Shown here one piece after another: positions 4,089-53,671 of a stretch of DNA of 64,000 nt. The DNA lies in contig NC_080561.1 of assembly GCF_030253575.1 (NCBI RefSeq), positions 6,647,001-6,711,000 on the forward strand, in the 5' to 3' direction. The DNA is from Rhododendron vialii (taxonomy: Eukaryota > Streptophyta > Magnoliopsida > Ericales > Ericaceae). Under the pieces are notes generated by a model, which saw nothing but the letters and a program-made list of their open reading frames with translations, searched no databases and was not told the DNA's origin. How positions within the stretch are numbered: the first letter of the stretch is position 1; each line of letters opens with the position of its first letter. The translations under genes and the position numbers were made by a program.

Positions 4089-4453
4089 CGGACCAATCCG
4101 GATTTTGTTCAAGTTAGGACGTCCAGATTTTACTTCAGTCCGCACCTCCCCTTTTCCGATCGAATATCGATGATCCGAGCCGCTCAATGTGCTTAAAAAG
4201 TGATTTTAAAGGTATCAACGAGAAATAAACAAAAAAAATGACCGGGAAGGGCTTGATTTGAGCAATTTTTTATTTAACTGTTCACTAAAAAACTGTTCAG
4301 ATGAAACTCTTCCCGGTCATTTTTTTTGCTGATTTCTCATGGGTATCTTTAAAATCACGTTCTGATCATATTGAGTAGCTCGGATCATCGAAATTCGATC
4401 GGGACGCTATTTAACGGAGTTTTTAACGAAATCCGTTAGTCATTCGGACTGAA
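4089..4453. mobile_element. Foldback (long-hairpin) element, family A
   Basis: The two halves are near inverted copies, centred at about 4280. GACCGGGAAGGGCTT on the left answers CTCTTCCCGGTCATT on the right, and CTTCAGTCCGCACCTCC near the left end answers CGGACTGAAGGAGG near the right end. A close relative lies at 51186-51530. The element abuts the end of the LTR, and I saw no clear target duplication. No coding capacity is visible. Confidence 0.7.
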
Positions 4454-33767: not shown

Positions 33768-33829
33768 CATAGGCCACAATAATCTACTGCCTCGCCAAGA
33801 ACCTCGCGACCGTTGGTGTAAGCGCTTTA

Positions 33830-37068: not shown

Positions 37069-40000
37069 TCAGTGACGAAGGTCGTGGAGGTGGTGAGAGC
37101 AGGTTTGGTGGTTGTGGAGGCCGTTCGAGCAGTTGCTGCCATGGACATGATGATGATGATGATAGTCCATGCCATCTCCATTCTCAGATGTTTTGGCCAT
37201 TTGATCAGGCCACCCTCCAAATCGAGTTATCTCGAGCAAGGAGTCTCTAACATCATCTGCTTGAACCATTTCACTATCCATCTTCTGAAACCACAAACGA
37301 GCAGAGAGACAACTTCGATTATTATATCAACTTAACAACTTAATAACTCTAGTGTAGCCTTTTTAAAGATTTAGAAATCACTATAATCCCCTCTATAATC
37401 TCAATCTGAGTACTAAGTCTTTGAGTCAATTTGCGATGTTCTTGTGTCAGCCACTTCTATCACTATTAAGGATCCAACCACATCAATCACTTTTGACTAA
37501 AATTCCGGCCCAACATCATTTTCTTTGGAAGATAGGCAATTTAGTGCCAAGACTCGCTCATTGTATGTGCTTGGACAAGGAGATGGTATGTCTTGAGGAT
37601 CTTACCTCGACTTGGAAAACGTTTGAAACAAGAGATCTGTAGCTAGTCACATTCAAGCTTGTTACTTCCAAGCCAAGAGAATTCAAAGCCTCCATCAAGA
37701 TCACAAAGCCCCCACTCTTGTGCTCACAGAATACCCTCACAAAGAACTCATTCCCATCTAGCTGTGCCACTTCTACTTGAGGCTGCCAATTTCATCACAA
37801 CACAATGCTCACAAATGAAAAAAGTACGAATAAAACAATTTGGTATCATTTTGTTTCTATTTTTTTTCCCTCCTTCAGAAAACAAGTACTTTTTTGAAAC
37901 AACCCACTTTTCATTCCGAAATGTTCATAATCATTTTTCATGCAAAATGTAACCAATGAGTGGTTTCAAACATCTCATTGTATTTTCATTCCAGAAAGGA
38001 AGAAAACAAACGCAATACTGAACTGACTAAACTCTACTATGAAGTAACCTCCATTTGCCGTGGTTTGTGATCATAAATACTCGCATCATGATTTTGTTTT
38101 TTGGGGTTGGCAACACCATTGTTGGCTGCTCCCACGTTATTTCCATCAGGAGTCTCTTCATGTTCACATTTCAATCCAACATTCAGTTTCTCAGATTGCC
38201 CATTGTTTTTTATTCCTTCGTCATCTGATTGCTCTTCAAGTTCATGTTGGAGATCGTTTACTTGTTTCTGCAATTCCTTCACAAATTCAATTGCATCGCT
38301 GAGGATTGAAGCTTTATCCAACTGCAAATGAACAAATCCGTTAGAAATCACTATCTAGCACGAGTAACATGGTTTACTGTATTCTGTGTGCAACAAGTCA
38401 TTTGTTTGTGAAAAGTGTCATACACTATTTGACTTATTAAGTTCAAACAATTAGTACACCGTAGTACATTGTCTAAATGGCATGTAAGATAGTGTGATAT
38501 CCACAAGATTTAAAGATGCTGCACAAATTGTTGTATTTTTTTTTTTTGCTCAGCCACAAATTGTTGTGTTTGTAGAATAATTGAGTTCAACTCGTGTTTG
38601 ACTCATTCGAATGGCTTGTTTAAAATTCCCAGCATAGTTATTCGAGTTTGGCTCGTGATTGTTTCAATCAAACTTGTTTGATCGATCAACTTGACTAATA
38701 TGCAAAAGAGGCTTGACCCCAAGTTCGTTTCAAATTAAGCTTGGACAATCCATTGCTCGGTACATTTAGCCCTCCTAATTGAGATATTGCATAGAGATTA
38801 CCTTTTTTTCAGCAAGTCGAAGGACACAAAATGGAAAAAAACAAAAAGAATATAGAACATACAGTATTGACAACACTATGTTCATCTCCAATAATCTTGT
38901 GTGGGCTCCTTATAACAATACGCGCTGTGTTGTTGACACTACATGCTGTGGTTCATTATGCATCCGCAGACTTATTGCAAATTGTGATATGCAATTATTC
39001 AAGATGGAGAGTACCTTGGTAATTTTGGGAACCAAAGAACGAAGAGCGAATAGCCGGTCATTGAGCTTCTTCCTTCTATTCCTCTCAGCAACAAGGTTTT
39101 TTGACTGAGGCCCTTTCCCTGTCCTCCTTCGCCACTTGGCATCATCTTCGTCCTCATTTCCATCACTATCATCGGATATCGACTCTGATCTACCCGTCTC
39201 GTGTTTAACCGAATCCTTATCCGTCTCCTTGTTAAGTACCAAAGAAGAAGATTCCATAGTCATGGGTTGTCCAGTTGAATCCATAGCCTGAAGTCCATTA
39301 CTGTTGAATCCATCAAAGAAGGCCGCCTTGCTACTAGCTCTAGTTTCTGATGTGTGATCGAATGGTTGGAAGGAATTCATCGGAGAATGGAGCTGCATTC
39401 TGTCAGCAGTGACGCCGTATGGCAGGTTTGAATTTTCCGGCGATGATAAAAACAGATTATTGTTGAGGTCCATTTGGTTGTTTTCGTTCATTGAGAAGTT
39501 CGGATCCATGCTGCTTGAATGGATCATTGATTGTTGTTCTAATAACATGGTGCATTGAGATGCAATGCAATCTACAATTTCTTGATCTTCGGGTACCTAT
39601 TGTAAGAGAGGTCCGAAGTGTGAGTCAAATGTTCTCTGACCAAGTGGTGTGTGCCGGAGAGGTATGAATAATCAATGACTAAGATTGGGAGGAATGAAGT
39701 GATCTCTTGGAGGTGAAGGAGAAGGCAAGGGGGTACAGAATGACCATGGTAGTCCTCTGTGTGTGCGGGGGTTGACTCGGATACCCAAGGAGAAAGACAA
39801 TAGAGATGTTGGAGAGAGAATATTCTTCTCTCTGAAAGATATACTATACAATTATATCACTTATAATCTATCTAGCACGGACACGCGACACAACACAGAC
39901 ACGACACTTCAGATTTGAGTAAATGGCCTCTCTCACCACCCATGTCGTAAAACGTGTTACATAAATATCATTTTTTGGAGTGTCCAAACCAAAAACGTTG

Positions 40001-40702
40001 AGAAAAAGTAGGACACTTCAGATTTTTTTAGAGTCAGGCACATGTCTGGAGAGTGTCGGTGTCTGAAAAGTGTCCAACACTGGTATGTGGACTCCGACGA
40101 AGTGTCAACTGTTTCTATCGCATTATTTTCTTATGATAATAAAACCATGCAGTGAGTGAAAACTAATAGTTACTTTGAAGCATTACTTAATCACAATCGA
40201 AAGAAAGAAAAGGAGAAAGCAAGAGGAAAAAGAGTTTACTTGTTTGGAAACAAACAGCTCAACCAGTCCAACGGGAACCGGAATTAGCACCCTAGTCCCC
40301 ACTGTTTCCTGCAAAAGTATAAGATGGCAATGTATCAGATTGAATAAAAAGGTTTGTATGATTTATATATTGGAAGGAGGGGTTTAGGGTATTCACTTCC
40401 AAAGGTTTCGAGTCTGCGTTGTTCGAGAAGTTCAACCAACTGGCTTGGTTTGACATTAAGGCTTGAGCATAAATCCTGTAAAATCTAGTAGTACAGTTAG
40501 ATAAGTTCATGGGTATCAGTAAAAGAATTTCTTACAAATTGATGGGTGTTTTTTTTTTTTGTGATAATTATGTGAAACAGTCTCAAAACTCAAATCTGCC
40601 ACAACAATCTGAATGAATTTTTTGCATTCTCATCTTATTAGCAAGTCATTTGCCCAAATTAATGTGTATGCTTGTGTGTTATGTTGCGCGCGCGCGCGCG
40701 CT

Positions 40703-40779
<77 letters not shown>

Positions 40780-41465
40780 CCAGAATCTAGGGGAATGGAG
40801 GAGGGCAATTCAGCAAGAAGTTCACAAGGTTTGGCGATTGGATGCTGAAACATGACATCTCTGCAATGAGGAACCGAGGAAACAGGAAAAAGATCCTCCC
40901 CAACATTTTGGATATTCTCAGATCCAGCACAGCAACAATCTACCCAGTCAAGAAACCTAAAACACATCCAAATAATAAGTTAAATATCCGAGGAGATCGG
41001 TTGTGGCTCTTGTGAAACTTTCATAACCACAAGGGCGACAAAGATGTTTTGACCAACTCAATTGGCCGTACTGCAATAAATCATTGCTGAATTTATCAAA
41101 ATCATGAAGGGAAAATCAGGCGTCACAGTTGTGAAGTTTTTAAACTCATCAAGGGCAAAAAAGTGCTTTAGACCAGTTAAAACAGCTACATCAGCTAAGT
41201 CCATTAATCACATAACTACGAACATGTACTGGAAATCGGCTATGAGATTTTCAAACTCCTGTCTATATCGGGTAATATCTCAGCAAACCAATAAACCGAG
41301 ATGGATCTGCCAATGTCTAAGATGTTGGTACATAGAGAAACTTATGTACTTTAGTTTCTGTGCAAACCTTTGATCGTCAGCCAATTGCCAAAGAACACAA
41401 TAATCCCAGCTTTTGAAATTCACAATGGCCCTTAGCCTCTCCAACAGTTTTTGCACAAGGTTCAT
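37069..41465 (-). CDS. AMS: ABORTED MICROSPORES-like bHLH transcription factor, copy 1
   Basis: bHLH regulator of the AMS (bHLH21) type, known in Arabidopsis and rice (TDR) to act in tapetum for pollen-wall formation. Exons are 41465-41368, 40956-40780, 40475-40397, 40308-40240, 39596-39015, 38321-38049, 37782-37606 and 37284-37069; all GT-AG, in phase, 556 residues (Arabidopsis 571 from memory). The N-terminal MYC_N domain has [19 protein letters not shown] and the CCCAGSEN block. The basic region and helix 1 are near residues 306-335 ([20 protein letters not shown]). Helix 2 starts [17 protein letters not shown], with Ser where AMS has Gly. An ACT-like domain is at 427-485 (QVEVAQLDGNEFFVRVFCEH). 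The tail is His-rich, as in AMS. The ATG lies 5 bp after a probable 5' UTR intron acceptor (TCGCAG). Confidence 0.94.
38535..38554. mobile_element. 20-bp poly(T) insert with target duplication (micro-retroposon)
   Basis: A run of T then GCTCAGC is flanked by a perfect 13-bp duplication CACAAATTGTTGT (38522-38534, 38555-38567). It lies in intron 5 of AMS copy 1. The T-run plus GCTCRGC is shared with the insert at 22311. Confidence 0.65.
40714..40777. repeat. (GA)n abutting the intron 2 donor of AMS copy 1
   Basis: On the coding strand exon 2 ends GATTCTGG and the intron begins GTTCTCTCTCT, so the microsatellite starts inside the donor site. It is followed by (GT)n and (GC)n runs (40686-40713). 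AMS copy 2 has the same arrangement with a shorter run. Confidence 0.9.
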
Positions 41466-44193: not shown

Positions 44194-45477
44194 GTTCAAG
44201 CTTGATTTGAAATGTTAACTAGATTCAAACCAGTTTTGAACCGATCACGAGCCAATCTCTGGGAGCTTGTTCAAACTTGGTTCGAAAACTCAACGAGTTC
44301 TAATAAAGATTCAAACTAGTTTTATCCAACAATCAATTTGAAAGAACTTTTATCAAGATGTCGAACTCAGGTAGCACGATCCATTAATTCGATTATCGAA
44401 AGCACCATGTGGGACTGTTGTCTACAGTTCAACCGAGCCGAGCTCGAATAAGCTTTAGGATATTTGAGCTCGGCTCATTTAATATTCGAGCTCAAATTCT
44501 TAAATACTATTCAATCCGAGCGGAGCTTGAGCTTAAATCAAGCCCAAATATTCGAGCTCGATTAGTATTTAAGAATTTGAGTTGGGTTCCAGAACTAAAC
44601 AAGCCTCTATAAACGAGGTGAACCGATACATACAAGCCGAGTGTAGCGGGCCGAGCAAAATGGCTCAAGTCATACCGAACCTGATCCACTGGCACGATTC
44701 GATCCGAGTCGTTTGACAATAGACGCTCAGCATTCCGAACTATCTTGTAGCCGAGGACTCTCTCAACTACGGTCTATCAATTCAGCTTCCTATCCTTGTT
44801 CGGATATGAAACATGTTCCGCGAAGAGGCCCGTTTATGGTCTCACATCACGCTTGGTAAAAGATGAGCGTGGCCGCAGTGCCAGCTCATCCATATGACGA
44901 TATTGACCTTGAACTTAAAGACGTTCGTGACGTCATCCGAGCGGTTATCAGGATAAGGATAGAAGCATGTGAAGGTGCCAGCTCATCCTACAAAACGGTT
45001 ACAAAACCCTAAATGTGACGCAGGGTGACATCAGCCAACATATGTAGAGTGTTGGTGCAATCTTGGAGACCAAGCTAGGGTCTTACTATAAATATCTTAT
45101 TATGCCTTCTTAGAAAAGGTACGCAAAAAAAAAACCTTAGCTCCTAATTCCTAATTCCTCTCTGCAAGTGAACTGACTCTTGCACGGGAGGGCCATCCTG
45201 GAAAACTTCCGGTGTGGTCTTTAGTTGTGCTTCATTTTGTAGGGCAAAGGGAAAGGCTAGGAGCGGACCCCAAATCCAAGGACAGAAAGAGTACACCAGT
45301 CGGAATGGAGCCCCACACCGAGCCACGACGCTCGAACTTCGCATGTTTACTAAACGAGCTAAAAATTCTGTTTGAGAGCTCATTCACTAAACAAACCGAG
45401 CTAAACAAACCGAGCTAAGAATAAAATATGGGTTGTTGTTATTATAGTACCATAGTAATAACATTGTACATACATTG
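44194..45477. other. Intergenic repeat-rich stretch
   Basis: 44200-44720 is made of GAGCTCGAATA / CGAGCTCGGCTC-type words common in plant dispersed repeats. 44770-45130 has ACTATAAATATC (TATA-like) and may be part of an LTR, but I found no clear ends. No supported gene. Confidence 0.4.
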
Positions 45478-45690
45478 GTCTTAGATAATCTGCCGCCTCG
45501 CCAAGAAGCTCGCGCGCGACTGGAGGCGTAGACAAACGTGCTAGCGATCAGAAATCGAATCGGGAACAGAGCGTTAATGGTAGTACATAATAGGGGAAGA
45601 TCAAGTGCTCCGCCGCTCGAAGCAACCATCTCCGCTGTACGATTTGCCGCCTTCGTTGTTTCTTCGAAGACGAGCGCATTGATAAATTCA
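45478..45690 (-). pseudogene. FAM210 fragment, second copy (broken)
   Basis: The minus strand retains NRTAEMVASSGGALDLPLLC and NALFPIRF, matching the intact gene's NRTAELAASSGGALALAVLC and KALFPIRV. The frame is then lost relative to the gene, so the conserved proline-rich segment is not read. The first half, including the MAGGRF start, is missing. It marks the FAM210 side of the duplicated block that carries AMS copy 2. Confidence 0.85.
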
Positions 45691-45783
45691 GGATATACTG
45701 GCGTTGGTCGTTCTACTTTCGGGCGGTATTTTTGTTCTAAGCCTTGTCGCCTACAAATTTCAGTGCATACAAATTTGAGCCAT

Positions 45784-45871
45784 CGATTGCTCCGCAAACA
45801 TTTGAGATGTTGATCGTCAAGATAAATCGATTGCTCCGCAAACATTTGAGATGTCGATCGTCAAGATAAAT
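45784..45871. repeat. 44-bp tandem duplication
   Basis: Two units (45784-45827, 45828-45871), differing at one base, contain TTGCTCCGCAAACATTTGAG. On the minus strand they read ISNVCGAIDGS, faintly like the DDE-region IGAIDGTH of PIF/Harbinger transposases, but the stretch is too short to assign. Confidence 0.85.
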
Positions 45872-47979
45872 GACCAGATAAGTACTTGTGTTCTGTATAA
45901 TTTCAGCCGCACGGTAAGAGCATCTCCATGCCAATACTCTCTAAAACTTCATTTGATAGGATGATTTTATTCATACAATCTCCGATCACAAATGTCTTGC
46001 CTCTCCATTTCAAATATTCTTAAAAATTATGTAATTTAATCGGATACTACAAAGGTGATCAAAATCGCTCATTATTTTTCAAAATTATTTTACGAATTTC
46101 TACAAAAAAAATTAGCTCAATCGGATACTAATAATCTCTTTCATTAATTAATCTACCAATTCTTAAAAAGACTTTACTAGTTTCAGATTGAGCTAAATTT
46201 TTTTTCCCCAAAAACTCTTAAAAAGGCATTAGGCATTTTAAATGTGGGACCGATGTGAACCCTACAAAATCATATGTGCATTGCACACATCTTTATTGTT
46301 GCGATTTAGAGGATCCATAGTTTTGTTGGAGGATCTCTGACCCATTTTTTTTTAAAACCAAGATATGGGTGGAAATTTAGGTCAAAAGCTTTGCACAATG
46401 CTAAACCCTTAGTCTTACTCAAGTATAGTTTTTATGTATTCCCTTCAAAATTTGGGTTAAATTGACACATTTATAAATAAGAAAGTGAAACGAGGTGGTG
46501 AGAAAAAATGATTTTAATTTCTCCTCATTTGGGTAAGAAAAAGGGTAAAACTCAAAAAGATAGGTAAAATGTTGTGACATCAAACATGGTTTTTTAGTGC
46601 TTTCACAAAATATTTTGAGTGGAGATGCTCTAACTTGTGTGGCTAGGGTGGGCAAAAAGTCTTCAAACCCACGAAATCGACCCGCGCCACAATGGAGGAT
46701 GAGCAAGTTGGGTTTGGCAAATAAACAAGCCAATCCTGATTCATTTACTAAACCGAGCCAAGCCTCAAGTTCCTAGGGCTTCAAACGAGCTGATCAAAAA
46801 TAGGGTTGGCTTGAGCTTGAACTGAGCCACAGAAAATAGGCTCGCGCTCGGCTCTTGATCAAAACGTCAGTAGACAATACTCACACTCATTTGCAGTCCT
46901 GATTCACGAGAAAGAATAAAACAGAAAAGTAACTCTTGGGGCCACCTCACCCCACGCGTAAGCGTGTGAAACAACTGTGGGAGGGGGGGCCGTAGAAATT
47001 AGTCTGAGGTGCGCACAAACTGGCCCGGACACCCTGCATTACCAAGAAAAAAAAGAGCAGAAAAGTACAATGCGAGATTAACGGTTCACAAAATGTATGA
47101 TGCAATGATGGATTAATTACTACCATGTACACAGATCAGCAGGACAAGGGTTACGGAGCAGATGAACCCAAGCATGGCCATATTTTTCTCCCTTCTGTAG
47201 ACTGCAGTAGCTCTGGCGTTTGAGATACGATTTCTCTGCTTCGCTTCGTTGCGAATTGTATATAGTTTGAGGAATTCGTAGGATCTTCTCGTTTTAGGTA
47301 AACATCGTTAACCATGTGGGATCTATGTGTGCATCCCACAAATTTGTATCCAGGTTGTGCTCCTCTGTCTGTGACGGTAGCATTGTTGCTTGTCTTTTAA
47401 CTAGGCAAGAAGGTTAATTTCTTTCCGATTTTAGATGAATTTATAGGTACTTACAGCTAGCATTTACCCTCGACGAACCATTTACCCTCGATGAATTTAT
47501 AGGTACTTACAGCTAGCATTTATAGGTACTTACAATTTATGTCAGAGAGTTAGTAGGTTTGTAGTGTGGAAGACTTGAACCATTTACCCTCGACGAACTT
47601 ACAGCTAGCATCACCAAGGAAGGTAGCAAATTTTATTAGAATTGATCAATGAGAAATAAAAGAGATCAACTTTTTTCTTTATTTCTCATATTTTCCCACA
47701 ATTTCTCACCTTTTTAAGCTATTCAGAAAAATACAAAAAAAAAAAAAAAAAAAATTCTCACTCTTTCTCACTATCCATGAATGAACTCTTGGAATCCATT
47801 ATAGGGCAAGAAAAAAGGACTGTCATATACTAATAGTATCAAATTGGAGAACTCCAGTCTTTTTTGTTAAGAGACATGTCCATGAAGCTCATGCAAGAGC
47901 TCACAAGGAAACAGTTAAGAAGTTAATTGAAAGCTGGAAATGACACTTTTATTTGAATCACCCATGCCATTTAGTACTA
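45872..47979. other. Spacer before AMS copy 2 3' end
   Basis: No supported gene. A minus-strand copy of the CACCTCGACTAATTCC-type dispersed repeat lies near 46960-47040. Short duplications of CATTTACCCTCGACGAAC and TTATAGGTACTTACAGCTAGC occur between 47440 and 47610. Confidence 0.45.
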
Positions 47980-50900
47980 TCAGCGATGAAGTTGGTGGAG
48001 GTTGTGAGAACTTGTTTGGTGGTTGTGGAGGCCGTTTGGATGGTCGCCGCCGCCGCGATGGTCATGGTGATGGCAGTCCATGCCATCCTGATCATTCTTG
48101 GATGTTTTAGCCACTTGATCCGGCCACCCTCCGAATCGCGTTATCTCAAGTAAGGAGTCCCTGACATAGTCTGCTTGAACCATTTCACTGTCCATCTTCT
48201 GATTAAACAAAAAATAAGAAGATCGATCAAGGGAAAGATTTAATCACACCCCACGCCAGTTTCCTTAAAATCAAACTAGTTTCGTTTGTTTTTTTGGGGT
48301 CAGCGATCCCCTCCTTACCTCAATCCACCATACTCCCTTTTGCGGGCCCATCCCAACCTCATATAATAGTCCAAACTGTTGATCTCGAACTTGTTTTACA
48401 GAAGAACATTCGTGTGAAGAACATTAGTCGGAAGACTCAGCTTGATTGAATATCGATAGATATGGGATTAATTGTATGAAATGGCCGACCAAATACAGTT
48501 TTTCAATTACATTGTTCATTTCGTACGAATTATTTGCATATCTAATGATATCCAATCAAGTTGACTTTTATACAATGTTCTTCCGTGCAAAACGTTCGAG
48601 ATCAACAGTTTGGACTATTCATGTGGGTTCGGGATGGGCCTGGAATAGAGAGTATGGAGGAGAACATGGTCTGCCCCAACAATAATTTCTTCGGAAAGTA
48701 CATGCTCTAGTGCCATGACGCTTCATTGTATTCTGGATGCGCCCTACAGGACGCTCTGCATGGAGCTACTTTGCAGGGTTATCGATTTCCATTGTATGTG
48801 CTCGAATATGAGATGGCGTGTTTTGCGGATTCTTACCTTAACTTGGAAAACGTTTGAAACAAGAGATCTGCAGCTAGTTACATTCACGTTTGTTACTTCC
48901 AAGCCAAGAGAATTCAAAGCCTCCATCAACCTCACAAAGCCCCCACTCTTGTGCTCACAAAATACCTTGACAAAGAACTCATTCTCATCTATTTGTGCCA
49001 CTTCCACTTGAGGCTGCGATTTCACCACAACATATATATGCTCATAACTAAAGACAGATAACATAAAACCAAAACTGTTTTGGCACCATTTAAACTATTT
49101 GTAGGGCCGGTTTGTGATAGCGGTGAATACAGTTTGTAGATTGTACGTAGCTTTGGATTCTGCTGTAGATTCTTGATTTTCGATTTTAGTAGAAGCAGAT
49201 AAACATGTTTACTATTAACTGTAAAATCGTTATTAAACAACCCCAAGGTATTGACTGAGTGGTCTTGACTAAATTGATCATGTGCTGTGCAGTACCTCCA
49301 TTTGACGTGACTTATGATCATAAGCATCCGAATCGTGTTTTCGGTTTGTGGGTTCTGCAACAGAACCATAGCTTGCTGCTCCCATGTTATTACCACCGAC
49401 AAGAGTGTTTTCATGTTCACGTTTCAATCCGGCATTCAGTATCTCAGACCGGCCATTGTTTTTGGTACCTTCATCGTCCCCTGACTGCTCTTCAAGTTCA
49501 AGTTGGAGATCACTTACTTGTTTCAGCAACTCCTTCACAAATTCAATTGCGTCGCCAAGGATCGAAGCTCTATCCAACTAAGAACAAGAAACTCCATTAG
49601 GAATCAATACATAGTCCTAGTACCATGGCCTACCCCATTATGTGCACAAGTCATTTGTGTGTGTGAAAATTTTGGACATGGAACTTGTGAGTACCTTGGT
49701 AATTATAGGGACCAAAGAGCGAAGTGTATATAGCCGGTCATTGAGTTTCTTTCTTCTCTTCCTCTCAGCCTGCAGGTTTTTCGACTGAGGCCCTTTACCC
49801 GTCCTCCTCCGGTACTTGGCATCATCTTCATCTTCATTTGCATCACTGCAATCGGATATCGACTCTGATCGACCCATATCATGTCTACCTGAACAGGAGC
49901 GGCTCCAGGATTTTAGGCCAATAGAGACAAAAATGTACTAAAAAATTTGTATACAAAATATTATGTAAAATAAAGATATGTATTCTGATTGAAGCTTATT
50001 GGGCCTAATGTATTTTGTTTTATTAAGCTATATATGATCTACTTACTCCTAAATTTAACAGAAATTTTTGTTATTTCGGCTTTGTATGAATTATCCAGGG
50101 CAAACAATATAAAAAAAGAATCAAATTACATGGATAAAATTGTAAAATTTGAGTACATTTTCTTAACCCAGGAGGTTTGCTTGAACCCCCTGAAACACTA
50201 CTACAGCCGCCCCTGTACCTGAATCCTTATCAGTCTCCTTGTTAACACAAGATGAAGATCCCACAGTCATAGGCTTTGCAATCGAATCCATCTCCAGAAA
50301 TCCGTTACAGTTTGATCCATCAAAGAAGGATGGTTGTGCGAAATTCATCGGAGAATTGAGCTGGATTCTATCTGCAGTGATGTCGTATGGCAGGTTCGAA
50401 TTTTCCGGCGAAGGTAGGAATGGATTATTGGTCAGGTCTATTTGATTGTTTTCGCTCATTGAGAAGTTTGGATCCATATTGCTTGAATTGATCATTGATT
50501 GTTGTTCTAATAAGATGGTGCACTGAGATGAAATGTAGTCTATAATTTCTTGATCTTCGGGTACCTATAACAAAATAAGAACAAAAAATCATTAGGAGTT
50601 ATTCAAATTTCAAGAAATTGAGTTTGGGTTCCTGTTTTCGATTGATGATTTCATCAGTGCTACCTGTCCATGGTTTGAGCTGGGGTTTTCTTAGGATCCT
50701 CTACTACCTAGTTACGGATAGGACTATTATGCCGACTCCTAGTGTTGGTTTGCTTTGGCAGTGTGTTTGAGCCTGCTTTTCGCAGTACCTCATGTCTTAG
50801 ATCTAATAGTTTTGGTTCATTCCTGTTTCTTGTGATGAAATCTTTCGCCTTTGAGTGTTTGAACTGAAATGAAATGCTCAACTGTTGATCGAAAAATCCT

Positions 50901-51144
50901 ACACAGATTTTTTTGCAATCGTTATGTAATTTCAAATTGAAACATCTACCATTGAGACAAGAATGTTCCTGTCATCGTCCTGTATATTACTTGTGTGTGG
51001 ATTGTTTAGAAGTAGCTTCCATATGAGCATGGATTGTTTTCCATCACCGCTATTGCAAGTCCCACCGTGCGTTAATTGTAGTGATTTGAACTGTATATCT
51101 TCTACTACTCACAGACTAGTATATCCACGCCAAAAATCAATTTG

Positions 51145-51184
<40 letters not shown>

Positions 51185-51533
51185 AATTATCAAGTGAGGG
51201 ATCCCTCACTTTGTTAAAATGCGAGACTTTCATTTCCCGATCAAATTTTGAAAATCCGAACCGTTCAATGTGTGCAGAACGTGATTTTAAGGGTCCCCGC
51301 GAGAAATCAGCGAAAAAAATGACCGGAAAGGGCTTCATCAGAGCAGTTTTTTTTGAACCGTTGAATGAAAACTGCTCGGATGAAGCCCTTCCCGGTCATT
51401 TTTTTTGCTGATTTCTCGCGGGGACCCTTAAAATCACGTTCTGATCACTTTGAGCGGCTCGGATCATCGAAATTCAATCGGGAAGGGGAGTCCCGCATTT
51501 TAAAAAAATGCGGGATCTCTCACCGGAACCCGA

Positions 51534-51599
<66 letters not shown>

Positions 51600-53066
51600 A
51601 AATTAATTAAATTACGGTTTATAAAATCAACTGTCATGGAACACCTTTAAAACTATTGACAGTCCCCTAACTGTCAAGTTTATAAACCAAAATCCAATTT
51701 TTGATATACTCCGTCCGATCACACTAATTTTTTGCATAATTATACTACTCTGCGGGTCCCACAAACTGAATGAGGCCCACAATGACTGATGGAAACCGTG
51801 AGGTTTCCACCCCTGCGTACAGAATTGAACCTCATTGAATTAATCCAAAGCAATGAAAGACAAATCAGGAGGGAAAGTGGGTCACTTGTTTGGCAACAAA
51901 TAGCTCAACTAGTCCAATTGGAACTGGAATCAGCACCCTAGTCCCCACTGTTTCCTGCGAAGTGCAAAGGAATAAGATATCAATGCATTAGCTTAAGACA
52001 GAAAGGGCTGTGGAAATTTGATCTTTGGAATGATGGATTTAGGAAGGGAGTCTCACTTCCAGAGGATTTGAGTCTGAGTTATTAGCAGAGAAGTTCAACC
52101 ATCTGGCTTGGTTTGACATCAAGGCCTGTGCATAAATCCTGCAAGATTTATCGGTATGCTAGATAAAACCCGCGGGTAATTATTTGCTTCCGATACAAAT
52201 TTTATTTTCGATTACCTTCATTTCAAATTCAAATCGCCGCTATTATTGCATCTCTAAGTACGTAAACATAGATGATTTGTACATAGAAAGGTTATCCATA
52301 CAACAAGGTACATAGTGTTGATTCAAAGTTAGTGTGGTGCGGGCAGTGAGTCACACCGAGAATAAATTTAGTCGCGATTCAAAGTTAGTGCGGTGTGTGC
52401 AGTGAGTCACACCGAGAATAATATGGAAATTTTTGCAAGAAAGTTACTTGAAGAAACTAATTGTGCTTGTGTGTACATATGTGTGTATTTTTTTAGGAGA
52501 GAGAGAGAGAGAGAACCCAGAATCAAGGGGAATGGAGGGAGGGAATTCAGCAAGAAGATCACAAGGTTTGGTCCTTGGATGCTGAAACATGGCATCTCTG
52601 CAATGAGTAACTGAGGAAACAGTAAAAAGGTCCTCTCCACCATTTTGCATGTTCTCAGAACCAGCACAACAACAATCCATCCACTCAAGAAACCTATTAA
52701 ACAAACAAAAAAACCAATGAGATATAGGGCTCGGTTATCGCGGTTTCAAAATACGTAACGATGAATATGGCATTATAAATGCATCAGGAGAACGAAAAAA
52801 CCGGTGCCCTTGCCATGGATATGTAATATGTTGTACATATGAATTTTAACTTGTACGGGGAAACAACTCATACGTATGCGATTTTCAAACTTTCTGGAAT
52901 AGTTGCTAATGTAATGAGAGCTAAGTAGCCTATACATATGGATTGTATTATTTAGCTTCTGACTAAACCTTTGATCTTCAGCCAACTGCCAAATAATACA
53001 ATAGTCCCAGCTTTTGAAATTCACAATGGGCCTTAGCCTCTCCAACAGTTTTCGTACAAGGTTCAT
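47980..53066 (-). CDS. AMS: ABORTED MICROSPORES-like bHLH transcription factor, copy 2, with transposon-derived intron
   Basis: Paralogue of copy 1. Exons are 53066-52969, 52693-52517, 52138-52057, 51954-51886, 50564-50219 (5a), 49888-49695 (5b), 49577-49296, 49013-48837 and 48198-47980, all in phase, 547 residues. Exon 5 of copy 1 is split here by a 322-bp hAT MITE. Splicing CAG|GTACAG (50219/50218) to TTCAG|GT (49889/49888) restores [12 protein letters not shown], matching copy 1's D-S-V-K-H-E-T-G-R-S-E-S without a gap. If the element is not spliced out, translation ends 17-18 codons into it (about 275 residues) and the bHLH is lost. The basic region is [20 protein letters not shown] followed by PIITK, where copy 1 and Arabidopsis AMS have a basic residue before ITK. 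Helix 2 is [17 protein letters not shown]; the ACT-like part and His-rich tail are present. Confidence 0.85.
49894..50215. mobile_element. hAT-type MITE in AMS copy 2 exon 5, acting as a probable intron
   Basis: The inverted ends are CAGGAGCGGCT and AGCCGCCCCTG, with a perfect 8-bp target duplication TACCTGAA (49886-49893, 50216-50223). These ends fit the common plant non-autonomous hAT group (CAGGGGCGG...). The interior is AT-rich and non-coding, favourable for plant intron recognition. On the coding strand the duplication is TTCAGGTA and so offers CAG|GT at both borders. AMS copy 1 shows the empty site (TTCGGTTA) at the same codon. Confidence 0.93.
51148..51176. repeat. (TA)n microsatellite
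   Basis: A run of TA followed by CACACACA immediately left of a foldback element in AMS copy 2 intron 4. Confidence 0.9.
51186..51530. mobile_element. Foldback (long-hairpin) element, family A, AMS copy 2 intron 4
   Basis: A near-perfect inverted repeat with arms of about 150 bp around a short centre at about 51355. AACGTGATTTTAAGGGTCC, CGCGAGAAATCAGC and ATGACCGGAAAGGGCTTCAT on the left are answered by their reverse complements on the right. It lies between two (TA)n tracts and is much better preserved than the relative at 4089-4453. No coding capacity. Confidence 0.88.
51537..51596. repeat. (TA)n microsatellite
   Basis: Thirty TA units directly right of the foldback element, suggesting that the element inserted into or captured a TA tract. 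Confidence 0.9.
52497..52515. repeat. (GA)n abutting the intron 2 donor of AMS copy 2
   Basis: Exon 2 ends at 52517 on the minus strand, and the intron starts GTTCTCTCTCT. This is the orthologous position to 40714-40777 but the tract is only about a third as long. Confidence 0.85.
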
Positions 53067-53089
53067 TTTTCCTGCAACAAACAATCCAC

Positions 53090-53093
<4 letters not shown>

Positions 53094-53137
<44 letters not shown>

Positions 53138-53161
53138 GAGGAGGAGGAGGAGGAGGAGGAG
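53094..53161. repeat. (GA)n followed by (GGA)n upstream of AMS copy 2
   Basis: GA units to 53134, then nine GGA units to 53161, lying about 30 bp upstream of the AMS copy 2 start, within the probable 5' UTR intron. Copy 1 has only a short GAGAGAGA there (41492-41500). Confidence 0.9.
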
Positions 53162-53671
53162 ATCGAAGAAGAAGAAACTCCACAATTGGGAAATCAGAAA
53201 CCATTGGAATTTTCACGTACATGTTGGGAATTGGGCCAAACCAACAAAAATGCAACGAGCAAAGATAATCTAGATATAGAAAACAAGCACAAGACACAGA
53301 CATTTATGTGATTCCCCAACAAATTGTTAAATACATCCACGCCTCACACCATTTTTTCATTATTTATCGAATGAAGAAATAATACACATTACATCGGTAT
53401 CGCGAATGGCAAGTATAAATTCATATCCTGTGATTTGCATCACAAATTACTCAAACGGCTCAGCGAAGTGCGACCCAAGTTGAACTAGGTTTTCACAAGC
53501 CCAACAAAAAAGTTACTACAAAACAGAGGATCCCCTGTTCCCATTAACATGGGAGAGCTTGTCAGCAAATCAAAAGATACATTAAAACATGAAGTTTCCG
53601 CAAAATCTGCTTACGTTATGCATGCAATCAAACAAATACCTGACAAGAAAAGGTTTCTTCTCTCAATCTGA

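Follow-up and report, generated by a model that had tools for sequence, protein, structure and literature searches.

AMS-like genes

The window analysed, a 64,000-nucleotide stretch of the Rhododendron vialii genome, carries two tandem AMS-like bHLH genes on the minus strand, with copy 1 about 11 kb from copy 2. Copy 1 (37069..41465) comprises eight coding exons (41465-41368, 40956-40780, 40475-40397, 40308-40240, 39596-39015, 38321-38049, 37782-37606 and 37284-37069) and seven introns, and encodes a protein of 556 aa. Copy 2 (47980..53066) has nine exons (53066-52969, 52693-52517, 52138-52057, 51954-51886, 50564-50219, 49888-49695, 49577-49296, 49013-48837 and 48198-47980) and encodes 547 aa, a count which treats a MITE lying within the gene as an intron. 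With the MITE excised, the copy 2 coding sequence is 1644 nt long, has eight GT-AG introns and ends in a single terminal stop; all nine exons are open, as the first-pass annotation had claimed for the exons other than the interrupted one. The gene models were based upon homology between the copies and splice-site motifs. The start, the stop and the seven common intron positions agree between the copies, and all introns in the models are GT-AG.

Both proteins contain the Pfam domains bHLH-MYC_N, HLH and ACT-like, in that order; in copy 2 MYC_N spans residues 9-155 and HLH residues 297-339. The Pfam scores of copies 1 and 2 are close for MYC_N (79.1 and 79.6) and ACT-like (45.0 and 48.6); for HLH, copy 2 scores less (39.1 bits) than copy 1 (47.0 bits). 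At 231 alignment columns both copies are identical to an Arabidopsis AMS protein sequence. No third or processed AMS copy was found; among 36 matches, all those with at least 67% identity were the two window genes. Bacterial and archaeal contigs yielded no relatives of AMS, which is unsurprising for a plant gene, and an Rfam scan of 47900-53200 gave nothing reaching the gathering score. Within the open-licence PMC literature, no report of an AMS duplication in Rhododendron was found.

Some introns differ considerably in length. Intron 5 of copy 1 (38322-39014) is 693 nt long, against 117 nt at the same position in copy 2. Intron 4 measures 1321 nt in copy 2 and 643 nt in copy 1; in copy 2 it holds a long palindromic repeat (51148-51576; 82% self-complementary, with TA-run flanks), and a similar sequence occurs at 4146-4404. 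A second palindromic element (48324-48661; 70% self-complementary) is found in the final intron of copy 2, which is 638 nt long where that of copy 1 is 321 nt.

The hAT-type element and its insertion site

The MITE occupies positions 49894..50215 (given on the plus strand). It is 322 bp long, non-coding, with a GC content of 31%, and is multi-copy in its own genome. Its terminal inverted repeats (TIRs), CAGGAGCGGCT and CAGGGGCGGCT, match at 10 of 11 positions and agree with CAGGGG, which we take to be the start motif of hAT TIRs. The element is flanked on the plus strand by two identical (8/8) copies of TACCTGAA, at 49886..49893 and 50216..50223. The ends and the perfect 8-bp target-site duplication described previously were thus confirmed base for base. 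The 8-bp duplication and the short TIRs, in an element that is short, non-coding and multi-copy, correspond to the hAT superfamily. Of the stop-to-stop frames of at least 110 aa, the exon frame of copy 2 at 50163-50564 was the only one entering the element.

A window scan for exact 8-bp duplications associated with ungapped TIRs matching at 10/11 or more (spacing 60-1000 bp, low-complexity 8-mers excluded) returned this MITE as the only pair. No second copy was found in the window, where TIR-like sites occur at chance level (17 versus 13.8 expected), and a search of viral contigs with the TIR end gave no match, as expected for a plant element.

The insertion site lies within what is a single exon of copy 1, in agreement with the first-pass annotation. 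Exon 5 of copy 1 (39015..39596, minus strand) is unbroken and open at this point; the two BLAST pieces from either side of the MITE adjoin at 39211-39213, which places the empty site near 39206-39213.

The predicted MITE-derived intron

Read on the coding strand, the duplication is TTCAGGTA, and AGGT lies inside it. The upstream copy (50216..50223) reads TTCAG/GTA, the slash marking the junction, and is the predicted 5' splice site; the downstream copy (49886..49893) likewise reads TTCAG/GTA and is the predicted 3' splice site. The resulting intron (49889..50218, minus strand) is a phase 1 GT-AG intron of 330 nt, that is, the 322-bp MITE plus one 8-bp duplication, with coding-strand junctions CAG/GTACAG and CTGTTCAG/GTA. 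It divides codon 258 after the first base and falls in the linker between MYC_N and HLH. A donor CAG/GTACAG, an acceptor TTCAG/GT and a 330-bp intron made up of the element and one duplication had all been claimed beforehand, and each was found again on the coding strand at 50218-49889. More generally, the anatomy of a precisely spliceable hAT MITE holds, including the duplication, the TIRs, the empty-site paralogue and the GT-AG geometry.

In most of its signals the predicted intron does not depart from the other introns of the two genes, 14 in number. Its donor matches at 6 of 9 positions (3 to 8 in the others), pyrimidines make up a fraction of 0.65 ahead of the acceptor (0.41-0.76 in the others) and the AT content is 0.68 (0.59-0.69 in the others). 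A branch-like CTAAA is located 25 nt upstream of the 3' end, and the GT-AG ends stand in the consensus context of a U2 intron. The T content before the acceptor (0.29) is the joint lowest among the 15 introns, and the predicted donor has C and A at positions +4 and +5, where the donor consensus is A and G.

AGGT occurs at four coding-strand sites in the pre-insertion exons of copy 2, corresponding to 20 of 1588 8-mers (1.3%), and in none of the 1615 8-mers of the copy 1 exons. Since the case was selected for looking spliceable, the figure of 1.3% is a guide to chance and not a clean test. The seamless rejoining at codon 258 noted in the first-pass annotation was verified, though restoration of the exact frame and residue is automatic because AGGT lies within the duplication. 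Any AGGT-bearing coding-strand duplication would yield the same result, and the seamless frame was rejected as a separate line of evidence.

Constraint and decay

Copies 1 and 2 were compared over 542 codons by the NG86 method, giving a dS of 0.426, a dN of 0.110 and a ratio of 0.258; this ratio, like the values for the codons 5' (0.278) and 3' (0.242) of the insertion site and the other constraint measures, averages over the whole time since the gene duplication, much or most of which may predate the insertion. The exon lengths differ between the copies by 0, 0, 3, 0, -42, 9, 0 and 3 nt, every one of which is divisible by three. The homologous introns share 45-72% identity, with 3-10 gap openings each. 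Based upon the Arabidopsis AMS sequence as outgroup, 25 amino-acid changes were assigned to the copy 1 lineage and 25 to that of copy 2; at 60 further differing columns neither copy matches Arabidopsis AMS. No disabling change was detected in copy 2.

Between the two AMS-like genes lies a decayed duplicate of a FAM210A/B-domain gene (45387..45860, minus strand). By tblastn it could be aligned only in part, over residues 68-141 (46%, gapped) and, weakly and in another frame, residues 150-159 (E 0.11). It gave no Pfam match at E 0.001, while its counterpart at 34796-35242 matches PF06916. Because this decayed sequence sits between the AMS copies, the tandem duplication is suggested to have spanned more than AMS. 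The FAM210-like duplicate shows decay within the same duplicated segment that holds copy 2, for which it serves as an internal control. A further short piece is present at 33779-33808.

Copy 2 appears to have remained functional. Excision of the MITE is suggested because the rest of copy 2 is intact, and continued purifying selection on the gene may be inferred because its protein would be unchanged.

Age of the insertion

The MITE family has dozens of copies in the genome. In a search of 532.6 Mb (13 contigs), 40 of 190 candidates were scored, the MITE itself included, and among these the best other copy was 80% identical over query positions 41-330. Searches with half elements gave at best 86% over 123 bp (40 of 98 candidates scored) and 86% over 67 bp (40 of 77 scored). 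No close source copy was found among the scored candidates. Since no scored copy exceeds 80% over most of the MITE, the insertion need not be young.

Trees of the family gave similar results. The terminal branch of the copy 2 MITE was 0.136 in a tree of 40 tips and 0.140 in a tree of 59 tips (median 0.149), where its sister was L029 (support 0.81) and L074 was left out as too short. These branches are upper bounds on the age only: had the MITE a closer source that has since disappeared or that lies outside the scored candidates, the insertion could be young. A lower figure follows from the ends of the element, where the TIRs and the duplication together show one change over 38 positions. Close pairs in the 40-tip tree were limited to L044/L055 (approximately 73 kb apart) and L046/L059 (approximately 33 kb); they look like local duplications because the members of each pair lie near each other on one contig. 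The terminal branches of these two pairs are short (0.007-0.043). The sampled family copies gave no indication that the element had transposed recently.

These figures bear on the strongest alternative, namely that a recent insertion simply broke copy 2, that the exons are intact for want of time to decay and that the AGGT is coincidental. The perfect duplication and the TIRs, which match the family form at 21 of 22 positions, would suit a young age. Under a neutral model the probability of an intact coding sequence was 0.10 at 0.01 substitutions per site, 0.012 at 0.02 and 0/1500 at 0.05, so that intactness is not unlikely below approximately 0.01-0.018. Against such an event stand the lack of a close source among the scored candidates, the terminal branch of 0.136-0.140, and the AGGT itself, which only some 1.3% of insertions into coding sequence should capture. 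A rough model with a flat age prior, an assumed indel rate of 0.05-0.15 and a maximum age of 0.05-0.2 gave a Bayes factor of 17-78 in favour of a gene functional since the insertion over one dead since then. Recent breakage is considered unlikely, though it is the alternative to be taken most seriously.

Splice-site choice and retention

A second alternative is that splicing is inefficient or uses other sites, with copy 2 producing mainly a 275-residue MYC_N protein lacking the bHLH domain, or a mixture of products. Computed translation of a message retaining the MITE ends after 275 aa, upstream of the bHLH domain, and the product could conceivably compete with copy 1. An alternative 3' site, GGTAG, is located 4 nt downstream of the predicted one, and donor-like sites are present within the MITE at 50129 and 50046. 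The TIRs pair with each other in the predicted RNA (fold z -3.5), and in this model the stem could mask the donor. On the other hand, the exons downstream of the insertion are as constrained as those upstream when averaged since the gene duplication (0.242 vs 0.278), which a truncated product would not sustain for long, and the 4-nt shift leads to a stop after 317 aa. Mainly truncated or mixed output is distinctly improbable, and less to be expected even than recent breakage. Regulated retention may nevertheless add a layer to precise splicing, in that a MYC_N-only protein could possibly tune the paralogue.

The element family

The first-pass annotation had likened the MITE to introners. The mechanism fits this comparison, in that a multi-copy hAT-type MITE has a duplication which supplies both predicted splice sites; a family seeding introns does not emerge from the sample. 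Fifty-nine further family copies were sampled, 15 of which had readable ends and a duplication matching at 7/8 or more, seven of them perfectly. AGGT was absent, on either strand, from all seven perfect duplications. It was present in two of the 15 readable duplications (L035 and L057), each time in one of two imperfect copies, compared with a frequency of approximately 3% among the 8-mers of the window, either strand. Because the sampled copies have no clear AGGT bias, this looks like a single lucky insertion and not the work of an introner family.

Placement in host exons was assessed by a coarse test of approximately 300 bp of flank per side, which revealed no other case among the 59 sampled copies. 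At L067 and L034 both flanks were open to much the same degree as those of the copy 2 control; the flanks of L057 contained no clear exon by the same test. Eight flank frames (from L067, L034, L041 and L076) were searched against Pfam and gave one sub-threshold match, to zf-RVT in L067 (E 0.0084). This domain is found in reverse transcriptases. With 0/7 perfect duplications bearing AGGT and none of the 59 samples placed in an exon by this weak test, a true introner family seeding introns genome-wide is unsupported and very improbable.

Proposed origin of the intron

In the sequence of events which we favour, an AMS-like bHLH gene was first duplicated in tandem. Exon 5 of copy 2 was then entered at TTCAGGTA by a non-autonomous hAT element, as the sequence shows, with duplication of the 8 bp now visible on either side. 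The AG/GT in each duplication copy would have become a splice site, the upstream one 5' and the downstream one 3', and the AT-rich MITE would provide the intron body together with CTAAA as a putative branch site. The spliceosome would excise the MITE with one duplication and thereby restore the pre-insertion coding sequence. Copy 2 was probably kept under purifying selection after the insertion, as its intactness and the bounds on the age suggest.

Splicing of the MITE from the copy 2 message is likely on this evidence, and in our judgement the element has probably been spliced out precisely, with copy 2 functional ever since the insertion. The fuller proposal is that the MITE became a working intron of an AMS-like (tapetal) regulator and that purifying selection has maintained it, with both splice sites kept, over a span of at most about 0.14 substitutions per site; for this proposal the chances appear evenly divided. 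The transposon-born intron put forward in the first-pass annotation is borne out in several parts, by the intact coding sequence, the dN/dS of 0.26 averaged since the gene duplication, the equal numbers of changes (25 vs 25), the lack of a close source among the scored copies and the decayed neighbour in the same segment.

Relation to known modes of intron gain

The mechanism is already known in print, from transposons inserting into AGGT and from maize Ds. In maize, Ds, a member of the hAT superfamily, is reportedly removed as an intron when it lies in an exon. Ds is part of an active system and occurs in mutant alleles. The case of copy 2 resembles it in having a hAT element within an exon, its removal here being predicted; it differs in that the MITE is a divergent copy without a close relative among the scored genome copies.

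Insertion of a transposon at an AGGT protosplice site is set out as a model of intron gain in the available text of PMC3443670. A table in that text counts 35 events of transposon insertion, from Oryza, Drosophila, Oikopleura and Zea, with no demonstration in vivo, and its references include Giroux (1994) on maize Ds. As given there, the model has the anatomy seen at copy 2, with flanking duplications, an AG/GT donor, an AG/G acceptor and an unchanged coding sequence. What sets copy 2 apart from that account is that the insertion is natural, that the transcription factor it entered is duplicated and its paralogue has the empty site, and that splicing is predicted only. The same text also describes introns gained when a genomic segment bearing AGGT is duplicated in tandem, of which the potato RdRp gene is an example (PMC4974935). 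There too, two copies of a short motif supply both splice sites; however, the new intron is duplicated exon, and at copy 2 it is a transposon.

Introners offer another comparison. Gozashti et al. (2022; PMC9860276), in a survey of 3,325 genomes, report introners from 5% of species; within animals and land plants just two groups have them, and both groups are animals. They also show cases in which both splice sites derive from the insertion site, and for Florenciella they report splice sites taken over from that site. The MITE shares with introners, as they are described in that text, the target-site duplication and TIRs of a DNA transposon as well as predicted splice sites that were already present where it inserted. 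Introner families there make many introns, behaviour which the sampled MITE copies do not show. No paper combining "SOS splicing" with a transposon was found in open-licence PMC.

It is rare, and in land plants especially so, that both the source and the mechanism of a recently gained intron can be read directly. At the copy 2 locus the MITE, both copies of its duplication and the empty-site paralogue are all preserved. If the proposed origin is true, this would be a natural DNA transposon turned intron in a gene which remained functional.
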